Origin: Caulobacter sp. HMWF025
Lineage (GTDB): Bacteria; Pseudomonadota; Alphaproteobacteria; Caulobacterales; Caulobacteraceae
DNA: 35,730 nt
Direction of reading: 5' to 3'
NCBI RefSeq assembly: GCF_003060965.1
Contig: NZ_QAII01000085.1
Coordinates: forward strand, 14,104-49,833
Under the pieces are notes generated by a model, which worked only from the letters and a program-made list of their open reading frames with translations, ran no database searches and was not told the origin of the DNA. Position 1 is the stretch's first letter. The number at the start of each line of letters is the position of its first letter. Made by a program: the position numbers and the translations under genes. This document shows positions 9,834 to 11,465 of the stretch, piece after piece.

Positions 9834-10370
9834 TCAGTCCGGGCGGAGCTCGACCATCTCGCGGGCATACCGCTTCCAGTTCTCCACATAGTGCAGCGCC
9901 GAAGCCTGCAGGATCAGGGCATGCTGCTCGCCGATCTCGCGCACCACCTTGCCCGGGGCCCCCACGACCATGCTGTTGTCAGGGATCTCCTTGCCCTCGG
10001 TGATCAGGGCACCGGCACCGATCAGGCAGTTCCTGCCGATTTTCGCGCCATTCAGGACAATGGCCCCGATTCCGATCAGCGAGCCGTCGCCGATCGTGCA
10101 GCCGTGCAGCATCACCATGTGACCGATGGTCACGTTCGAACCGATGGTCAGCGGCGCGCCATGGTCCGTGTGAAGAACAGATCCGTCCTGAACGTTGCTG
10201 TTTTCACCGATCACAATGGGATCGTTGTCCCCGCGGATAACCGTTCCCCACCAGATACTTGCGTTCTTCTTGAGGACGACATTGCCCATGACCGAGGCGG
10301 TCGGCGCGATCCAGTATTCACCCTGGCCAGGCAGCTCCGGCCTTGCAGTGCCCAATGAATAGACAGTCAT
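9834..10370 (-). CDS. Gamma-carbonic-anhydrase-like hexapeptide repeat protein
   Basis: A 178-residue left-handed beta-helix protein of the gamma-CA / YrdA / PaaY type. Hexapeptide repeats run from about residue 24 to 128 (for example [35 protein letters not shown]). The three expected metal-binding His are visible: one in HTDHG and two in [10 protein letters not shown]-terminal helix ([23 protein letters not shown]) packs on the helix as in the trimeric family members. It may hydrate CO2 or simply bind Zn; many homologues are not active anhydrases. It is a single gene, divergent from the phoH region; its start is only about 70 nt from the likely 5' end of the RNA candidate. Confidence 0.88.
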
Positions 10371-10439
10371 CCGTATGCCCCATAACCTGAAAATCGCGGC
10401 TTGATTAATCTCTGATAAACCACGTTAGCATCATCCTAG

Positions 10440-10652
10440 TCGGGCGAATCGACGGGGTAAAAGCCTTGATTCACACCGGGCCGATGTTCGGTCCCGGCTC
10501 CCGGCAACGGAGACCACGGTGTCGCTCTTGGCGTTCAGGCGTTCTCTGAGACCCCCGCCTTCCCGGCCCAGTGCCGCGCCTCGTGGCGCACCCGTCTCCG
10601 TACATCTCCTCCCCACCGCCAAGGACGACGCCATACGGCCTCGTCCTTTTTT
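10440..10652 (+). ncRNA. Candidate structured RNA in the phoH leader
   Basis: The 303 bases between the carbonic-anhydrase-like gene and phoH hold no convincing ORF but strong + strand secondary structure. Hairpin 1: CCGGG 10476-10480 with CCCGG 10493-10497, and inner stem CCGA/TCGG closing a 3-nt loop. Domain 2: an 8-bp perfect long-range stem ACGGAGAC 10507-10514 with GTCTCCGT 10594-10601, enclosing hairpin TCAG/CTGA (about 10535-10549) and GCGCC-TCGT-GGCGC (10576-10589). Then an unpaired C-rich stretch (10602-10620, CTCCTCCCC), then an intrinsic terminator with six T ending at 10652. The 5' end is a guess: a -35-like TTGATT at 10401 and TAGCAT at 10426 are weak. It may be a free sRNA or a phoH attenuator. 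I do not recognise it as a known family. Confidence 0.55.
10621..10652 (+). terminator. Intrinsic terminator 12 nt before the phoH ribosome-binding site
   Basis: Stem AAGGACGA (10621-10628) pairs with TCGTCCTT (10641-10648); after a C-C mismatch, GCC/GGC closes an ATAC loop. Six T (10647-10652) follow. On the opposite strand no T-run follows, so it acts on + strand transcripts only. It lies directly upstream of the phoH Shine-Dalgarno at 10664. Confidence 0.75.
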
Positions 10653-10673
10653 CATGCCTGAATGGAGGCTTTC

Positions 10674-11465
10674 ATGACCAAGCGAGCCCTGAAGCGTATG
10701 GCGCGCGAAGGCGCGATCGAGACCGGCCACTTTTCGGATGACGCCAAGGTGCGCCGTCTGCCGGTCGATCATCGCGAGCGCGGGAACGGATGGTCACCCC
10801 TGGGCCATGAAGGGCCAGCCAAAGGGCCAGAGCGAGATCAGAGCTATCTAAAGACCATAAAACCCAAATCACCCGGCCAGGCGGAGTTGATGGAGGCCAT
10901 CGACAAGAAGAACCTGGTCATGGCGCTCGGCCCGGCCGGAACCGGCAAGACCTATATCGCCATCGCCAAGGCGGTCGAGGCCCTCGAAGCCGGAACGGTG
11001 GCCCGCATCGTCCTGTCGCGCCCCGCCGTCGAGGCCGGCGAGTCGATCGGCTACCTGCCCGGCGACATGGAAGACAAGCTGGCCCCCTATCTGCGCCCGC
11101 TCTATGACGCCCTCACCGACCGGCTTTCGACCCGCCGGATGCGGGCCCTGATGGCCGAAGGCGCCATCGAGATCGCCCCGGTCGGCTTCATGCGCGGTCG
11201 CACCCTGAACAACGCCTTCGTGGTCATCGACGAGGCCCAGAACTGCACCTACATGCAGCTGAAAATGCTGCTGACCCGGCTGGGCTGGCACTCGACCATG
11301 GTCGTGACCGGCGATCCCAACCAGTCCGACCTGCTGCCCGGTATTTCCGGTCTTGCGGACGTGGCGGCGCGGTTTGAAGCGGTCGAAAACATCGGCGTGG
11401 TCCGCCTCGCCGATCGCGACATCGTCCGCCACCCCCTCGTCGCGGAGATGCTGGGCGTTCTGTAA
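10674..11465 (+). CDS. phoH: PhoH family ATPase
   Basis: A 263-residue cytoplasmic P-loop NTPase. Walker A is GPAGTGKT (86-93) and Walker B is VVIDEAQN (183-190); the family pieces SRPAVEAGESIGYLPGD and TGDPNQSDL are intact. The first 65 residues are a basic, low-complexity extension before the ATPase core, as in many alphaproteobacterial PhoH proteins. An ATG at 10662 is in frame, but the ATG at 10674 has TGGAGG at 10664-10669, 4-5 nt upstream, and is chosen. PhoH proteins bind ATP and are tied to RNA metabolism and phosphate stress, though the exact reaction is unsettled. Its expression may be controlled by the structured leader: an intrinsic terminator ends just before the ribosome-binding site. 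It ends at a second hairpin terminator. Confidence 0.92.
   Translation: MTKRALKRMAREGAIETGHFSDDAKVRRLPVDHRERGNGWSPLGHEGPAKGPERDQSYLKTIKPKSPGQAELMEAIDKKNLVMALGPAGTGKTYIAIAKAVEALEAGTVARIVLSRPAVEAGESIGYLPGDMEDKLAPYLRPLYDALTDRLSTRRMRALMAEGAIEIAPVGFMRGRTLNNAFVVIDEAQNCTYMQLKMLLTRLGWHSTMVVTGDPNQSDLLPGISGLADVAARFEAVENIGVVRLADRDIVRHPLVAEMLGVL

Follow-up and report, generated by a model that had tools for sequence, protein, structure and literature searches.

In the Escherichia coli pyrBI operon, an intrinsic terminator is described as sitting within a 135-bp leader gene (PMC4824070), and the advancing ribosome is reported to inhibit that terminator (PMC4824070, PMC5021804); when a polyproline stretch lies ahead of the pyrL terminator, termination is reported to increase if EF-P is missing (PMC5021804). 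We found a similar arrangement in front of a phoH gene of Caulobacter sp. HMWF025, in a window (the whole stretch of DNA that we analyzed) of 35,730 nucleotides, and on balance we favor the view that this leader is a translation-coupled transcription attenuator of phoH with a pyrBI-like layout. The word phoH does not occur in the main text of papers on Hfq-bound RNAs (PMC11005374), ribosome profiling in Caulobacter crescentus (PMC4117421), premature terminators (PMC2965389), or GcrA and CcrM (PMC7987155). Translation-coupled attenuation is a known kind of control; as far as our searches went, phoH is a new gene for it, and no description of phoH attenuation of this kind was found in the open-licence PMC literature.

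PhoH is a widespread ATPase. The window gene (10674..11465, + strand) encodes a short PhoH-domain ATPase of 263 amino acids (PF02562) and is preceded by a GGAGG ribosome-binding site at 10664..10668 (+ strand). The closest named relatives of its product are from Caulobacter, and its Pfam matches comprise PhoH and related NTPase domains, with no PIN domain. The genome has a second PhoH gene, flanked by a radical-SAM/TRAM (MiaB-like) gene and ybeY, then by a CorC-like gene; because this second gene sits between the MiaB-like gene and ybeY, the window phoH is the other, solitary copy. In C. crescentus, 30 min of carbon starvation is reported to raise the expression of CC_2644, a phoH gene, 44.56-fold; CC_2644 is listed as a CtrA target and as cell-cycle regulated, and a phoH gene of Caulobacter is counted among the transcripts that carbon starvation induces most strongly (PMC3073932). 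CC_2644 probably corresponds to the window phoH, because the other phoH lies inside an operon and because the window promoter has a CtrA-like box (assigned by eye). PhoH is also reported to be lower in copper-treated swarmer cells in one medium (PMC8224329).

A first-pass annotation described positions 10440-10652, upstream of phoH, as a gene-free gap carrying a structured RNA. The structural elements were found where they had been placed: a 5′ hairpin at 10476..10497 (+ strand; MFE fold; of three groups whose consensus was folded from plain sequence alignments, two have a comparable hairpin); a perfect 8-bp stem (ACGGAGAC at 10507-10514 with GTCTCCGT at 10594-10601) closing a domain at 10507..10601 (+ strand); a C-rich single strand, pyrimidine-rich in composition, before the terminator; and an intrinsic-terminator-like hairpin with six Ts at 10621..10652 (+ strand), whose basal stem pairs 10621-10628 with 10641-10648 and whose T6 (10647-10652) is separated by 11 nt from the phoH GGAGG. 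Since the left neighbor gene is on the minus strand, this + strand terminator is not that neighbor's. Folding of the 221-nt RNA gave −91 kcal/mol, whereas shuffles averaged −78.45 (z = −2.69; 2 of 200 shuffles equally good). By one fixed rule, the whole window contains three terminator-like sites on the + strand, the phoH-leader site included, and two on the − strand; a simple terminator scanner did not list the phoH-leader terminator. The Rfam scan suggested in that annotation gave no match at or above the gathering score among 4,227 families for the whole window, the best sub-threshold match in 10300-10750 being to part of ar35, at the terminator, with 19.5 bits versus a gathering score of 45.

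The gap is not gene-free, because a 52-codon ORF sits there. This leader ORF (10519..10677, + strand) has a GTG start, a Shine-Dalgarno (SD) GGAG at 10509..10512 (+ strand), and a predicted product of 52 amino acids (VSLLAFRRSLRPPPSRPSAAPRGAPVSVHLLPTAKDDAIRPRPFFMPEWRLS); its TGA stop overlaps the phoH ATG as ATGA, and the whole terminator falls within it. Three consecutive proline codons lie at 10552..10560 (+ strand); many relatives have Pro-Pro-Gly (PPG) further on, and the window has no PPG. Between the leader start and the terminator, the window has no T run longer than two. The sequence is thus better read as a predicted translated leader than as an empty gap.

The domain closed by the 8-bp stem contains the SD, but only some clades keep the stem; we rejected it as a general element, as its six core pairs form in just 70.6% of cells among 17 leaders. 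It is rather unlikely that the terminator is governed by an RNA switch (an antiterminator or a ribosome-site lock, acting with a ligand, a protein, or Rho), with the ORF serving only to couple translation to phoH. The SD-holding stem of some clades would fit such a switch, as would a helix holding the start codon, whose cells are paired at 88.2% in group A2 and 80.3% in group A4, and the uORF-dependent attenuation described for a Sinorhizobium DUF1127 gene (PMC12218461). However, the fraction pairing above 0.5 was 0.79 for the terminator arm with upstream sequence, versus 0.88 in shuffles, and it was 0.92 versus 0.88 for the start codon and 0.98 versus 0.89 for the SD region; thus, neither an antiterminator nor a ribosome-site lock showed a clear excess over shuffles in the leaders.

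The attenuator reading that we prefer draws instead on the terminator and the ORF. Across the leaders compared, the predicted terminator is conserved well beyond the genus. We scored a terminator as a run of at least five Ts with a hairpin of −13 kcal/mol or lower, no more than 100 nt from phoH; by this rule, 113 of the 115 distinct leaders from Caulobacteraceae have one, versus a background in the same loci of 0.0082 per 100 nt. Elsewhere in the order, the leaders positive in four families numbered 3/3, 5/6, 2/6, and 0/5, and other orders gave 8/15, these being the 15 short-PhoH genomes out of 95 searched. The rule missed two Caulobacteraceae leaders, L127 and L133, whose hairpins (at −132 and −93) are weaker in a hairpin scan of the 136 leaders without the short L097; L129, counted among the 113 positives, scored through a different hairpin. 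By eye, these three Asticcacaulis leaders have an extra G+C-rich inverted repeat between the terminator and phoH. The last 90 nt before phoH in another Caulobacteraceae genome (L163, genome G127) hold two tandem terminator hairpins, both with T runs; the leader frame passes through the pair and encodes a repeated SASPFFMP stretch, which looks like a duplication of the attenuator.

Leader DNA similar to that of the window was found in 54 of 101 genomes, within the genus only (54/61, versus 0/40 in other families), with a query that held just 7 nt of phoH. The leader directly precedes phoH in all 54, and a T run of 5 to 6 just upstream of the phoH ribosome site was read directly in each; a T run before phoH is also present in nearly all of 80 named loci, including those of Phenylobacterium, Brevundimonas, and Asticcacaulis. 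At an E value of 1e-3, a covariance model of the leader had matches in 138 of 199 genomes, and within the family it reached 21 of 22 genera, with weak matches counted irrespective of position, and mostly with a single match per genome.

The first-pass annotation proposed either an sRNA gene or an attenuator of phoH transcription. Of these, attenuation is supported by a conserved, covarying terminator directly before phoH; the noncoding half is not supported, since the terminator is traversed by an ORF whose SD and start are conserved. We regard it as improbable that the terminated leader is a trans-acting sRNA and that phoH is simply read through part of the time. This reading has in its favor a structured RNA with a strong terminator and a comparable 5′ leader sRNA, Rhodobacter UpsM (PMC5089854), but it is weaker than the attenuator reading: the leader precedes phoH in 54 of 54 genomes matched by leader DNA, most genomes have one match, and a frame-keeping ORF occupies the leader's middle. 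These points do not argue against an additional role of the leader RNA in trans. The sRNA CcnA was tried and rejected as a match; it lies at the replication origin, and the main text of its description does not use the word phoH (PMC8959179).

As for the attenuator's terminator, the hairpin itself appears to be what is conserved, and the peptide and the reading frame through it are not. The first-pass annotation had named an absence of covariation among phoH leaders as grounds for doubt; the terminator stem does covary. It contains many pair types among 95 distinct segments (pairs taken from MFE folds, with unpaired cells uncounted). In an alignment not fitted to structure, 95.4% of stem cells were paired, with both-side changes in two pairs; in an alignment fitted to structure (43 rows, among them the reference and two partial matches on the opposite strand), 99.5% were paired, with both-side changes in three. 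When codons were replaced by synonyms in frame f1, no more than 25 of 500 variants matched the stability of the real hairpin in 22 of 27 leaders, and 30 to 66 did so in the other five. Clades differ in the frame used through the hairpin, which is read as KDDAIRPRPFF in one and QGRAISATPFF in another; since the hairpin codes for differing peptides in different clades, the conserved thing is apparently not the peptide. A −1 frameshift at T6 was considered as an idea and set aside.

The leader ORF was compared in 69 aligned leaders, which are those of 91 sources whose match covered 120 nt or more of the leader; as the sequences are related, the counts are not independent. GGAG, GAGG, or GAAG precedes the start column in 64 of the 69, and the column itself is ATG, GTG, or TTG in 58 (no usual start codon in 11). 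The frame from this column passes the T run in 68 leaders and stops earlier in 1. Most of these frames (59) stop within −20 to +1 of the phoH ATG, 1 stops at −22, and the frames without a stop before phoH enter it in frame in 5 leaders and out of frame in 3. Because the five in-frame leaders (L119, L117, L086, L239, and L244) have no stop before phoH, a longer PhoH is possible in these once the terminator has been passed.

Among the 58 leaders with a usual start, 57 are open to the T run, versus 39.4 expected from dinucleotide shuffles, and all 21 representatives are open, versus 14.7 expected (P = 4e-4 if independent); the two other frames from the same start are also often open (54/58 and 41/58), so openness alone is a modest sign. 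Frame-keeping indels are a stronger sign of a candidate ORF. In 61 leaders (ATG, GTG, or TTG starts, plus GTC starts), the distance from the start to the PPG column is mainly 53, 56, 59, 62, 65, or 68 nt and falls in one class modulo 3 in 56, whereas the distance from the PPG column to the T run is divided 24/7/30 among the three classes. With 34 previously unused leaders, the same start-to-PPG class was found in 28, and the PPG-to-T run distances were divided 16/13/5; the frame passes the T run in 33 of the 34, and it stops at +1, −2, or −3 of phoH in 26. Indels in these alignments thus preserve the frame from the start codon to the PPG column, but not from there to the T run. A frame that is kept to the prolines, then drifts but stays open, and is mostly closed at phoH would be expected were it translation itself that mattered, and not the peptide past the prolines.

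PPG occurs in 38 of 57 peptides, versus 4.7 expected from residue shuffles, and in 24 of the 34 new leaders, versus 4.1 expected. For the broader set of PPP, PPG, PPD, PPE, and PPW, the counts were 41 of 57 in the first set, versus 16.2 expected, and 33 of 34 in the new one. Since PPG also belongs to a small hairpin motif, RNA constraint may explain part of its conservation. Codon-level constraint on the predicted peptide is weak: permuting columns for pN/pS in four groups reached the observed value in 272, 40, 42, and 74 of 400 trials, and in the first group (272/400) the ORF frame was not the best of three. The case for the leader peptide as a conserved protein is weak. In each of five clades, the ORF frame gave a lower pairwise dN/dS (0.58, 0.73, 0.59, 0.57, and 0.47) than either shifted frame did; because these pairs are not independent, we relied on the modulo 3 test instead. 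That the ORF encodes a small functional protein for PhoH (for example, a PhoAT-like partner of PhoH2), with the hairpin being secondary, is also improbable: although the small ORF overlaps phoH, and mycobacterial phoAT is reported to be cotranscribed upstream of phoH2 and their products to interact (PMC7390352), here the peptide sequence and even its frame change beyond the proline column, codon constraint is weak, the window PhoH is missing the PIN domain, and the peptide has no Pfam or NCBIfam match.

Outside the Caulobacteraceae, 7 of 20 leaders have an ORF of at least 20 codons with an SD and a usual start, most of which reach the phoH start region. By eye, in two leaders from another family of the order (L182 and L184), a frame encoding Thr-Pro-Pro-Pro-Gly passes the terminator, with no usual start fittingly placed, and in two from other orders (L260 and L271), an ATG-started frame passes the terminator before phoH, that of L271 stopping 6 nt upstream of the phoH ATG.

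Upstream of the leader ORF, a promoter-like region (10401..10431, + strand), a partly conserved alignment block assigned by eye, includes TTGATT (10401-10406, + strand), a CtrA-box-like TTAA-N7-TAAA (10405-10419, + strand; called by eye against the CtrA consensus), and a −10-like TAGCAT (10426-10431, + strand), which is altered in some Caulobacter clades; a sigma-70 scan gave no promoter at 10401-10431. Our guess is that transcription starts near 10438. Just downstream of this presumed start is a GANTC, the CcrM methylation site (10446..10450, no strand assigned). GANTC is present at −340 to −120 in 114 of 115 Caulobacteraceae leaders and, in other families, in 3/3 (f2), 6/6 (f4), 5/5 (f5), and 0/6 (f3). 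Because 69% of shuffled leaders also contain a GANTC, the argument is its constant place after the presumed start: by eye, in 43 Caulobacteraceae contexts and in other families, it lies ∼13 to 14 nt past the −10-like box, although it is placed elsewhere in a few leaders (e.g., L118 and L127). Its recurrence in three other families suggests CcrM/GcrA control of phoH.

In the attenuation mechanism that we propose, RNA polymerase would start near 10438 and, by default, halt at T6, releasing a leader RNA of ∼210 nt. A ribosome initiating at the GTG at 10519 would trail the polymerase closely; by occupying the codons of the terminator hairpin, a close ribosome would block the hairpin, so that transcription continues into phoH, and it would terminate on the phoH start codon, handing over where stop and start share ATGA. 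The run of prolines that lies ∼70 to 100 nt before the T run, as PPP in the window and PPG in many relatives, would be a speed bump setting the ribosome's lag, and phoH output would then depend on EF-P, proline supply, or polymerase speed. Comparison among relatives establishes that the start is conserved, that indels keep the frame as far as the proline column, that the frame remains open across the terminator, and that the terminator covaries and is tied to phoH; termination, translation, their coupling, and the signal and its sign we infer.

Were starvation to hold back ribosomes more than polymerase, the model would predict an effect opposite to the induction that has been reported. A conserved, ribosome-read termination gate would be a concrete, testable cause of phoH induction and a natural sensor of transcription-translation coupling. 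It is a possible but rather doubtful extension that short phoH genes of alphaproteobacteria are widely under such a ribosome-polymerase distance gate, with an EF-P-dependent PPG timer and a CtrA/CcrM-type promoter; if true, this would let phoH report the uncoupling of transcription from translation in starved cells and would account for its very strong induction by carbon starvation.

Several described systems share parts of this layout. Like the phoH leader, the long 5′ dcw leader of Rhodobacter that yields UpsM has an intrinsic terminator, but UpsM is described as noncoding and probably trans-acting (PMC5089854). In the mycobacterial PhoAT-PhoH2 system, a small upstream ORF is described as sharing one transcript with a PhoH-domain gene (PMC7390352); however, PhoH2 carries a PIN domain, whereas the window PhoH has none and its leader peptide is not conserved. 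Sinorhizobium meliloti duf1127 is a parallel in that translation of an alphaproteobacterial uORF decides premature termination of a downstream gene, but this termination is described as Rho dependent and as taking place between the uORF and the gene, whose expression falls when the uORF is translated (PMC12218461). Attenuators of the trp/his type have a regulatory codon run, as do phoH leaders (PPG in many, PPP in the window), and pairing between antiterminator and terminator arms, for which phoH leaders gave 0.79 versus 0.88 in shuffles. As in mgtL and the polyproline-pyrL reporter, consecutive prolines precede the termination point, and in those systems ribosome lag is reported to be able to decide termination (PMC5021804); mgtL works via Rho and RNA structure, unlike the phoH leader, with its intrinsic terminator and no switch found. 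The phoH leader resembles E. coli pyrBI (pyrL) in having an intrinsic terminator in a short leader gene before the controlled gene, but the gene and the lineage are different, and the phoH leader stop overlaps the phoH start. In pyrBI-type leaders, a T-rich pausing tract before the terminator provides UTP sensing; the phoH leader has no such tract and has a proline motif there. Because it has both a pyrBI-type terminator within an ORF and a proline stretch, we propose termination by default with a proline timer.
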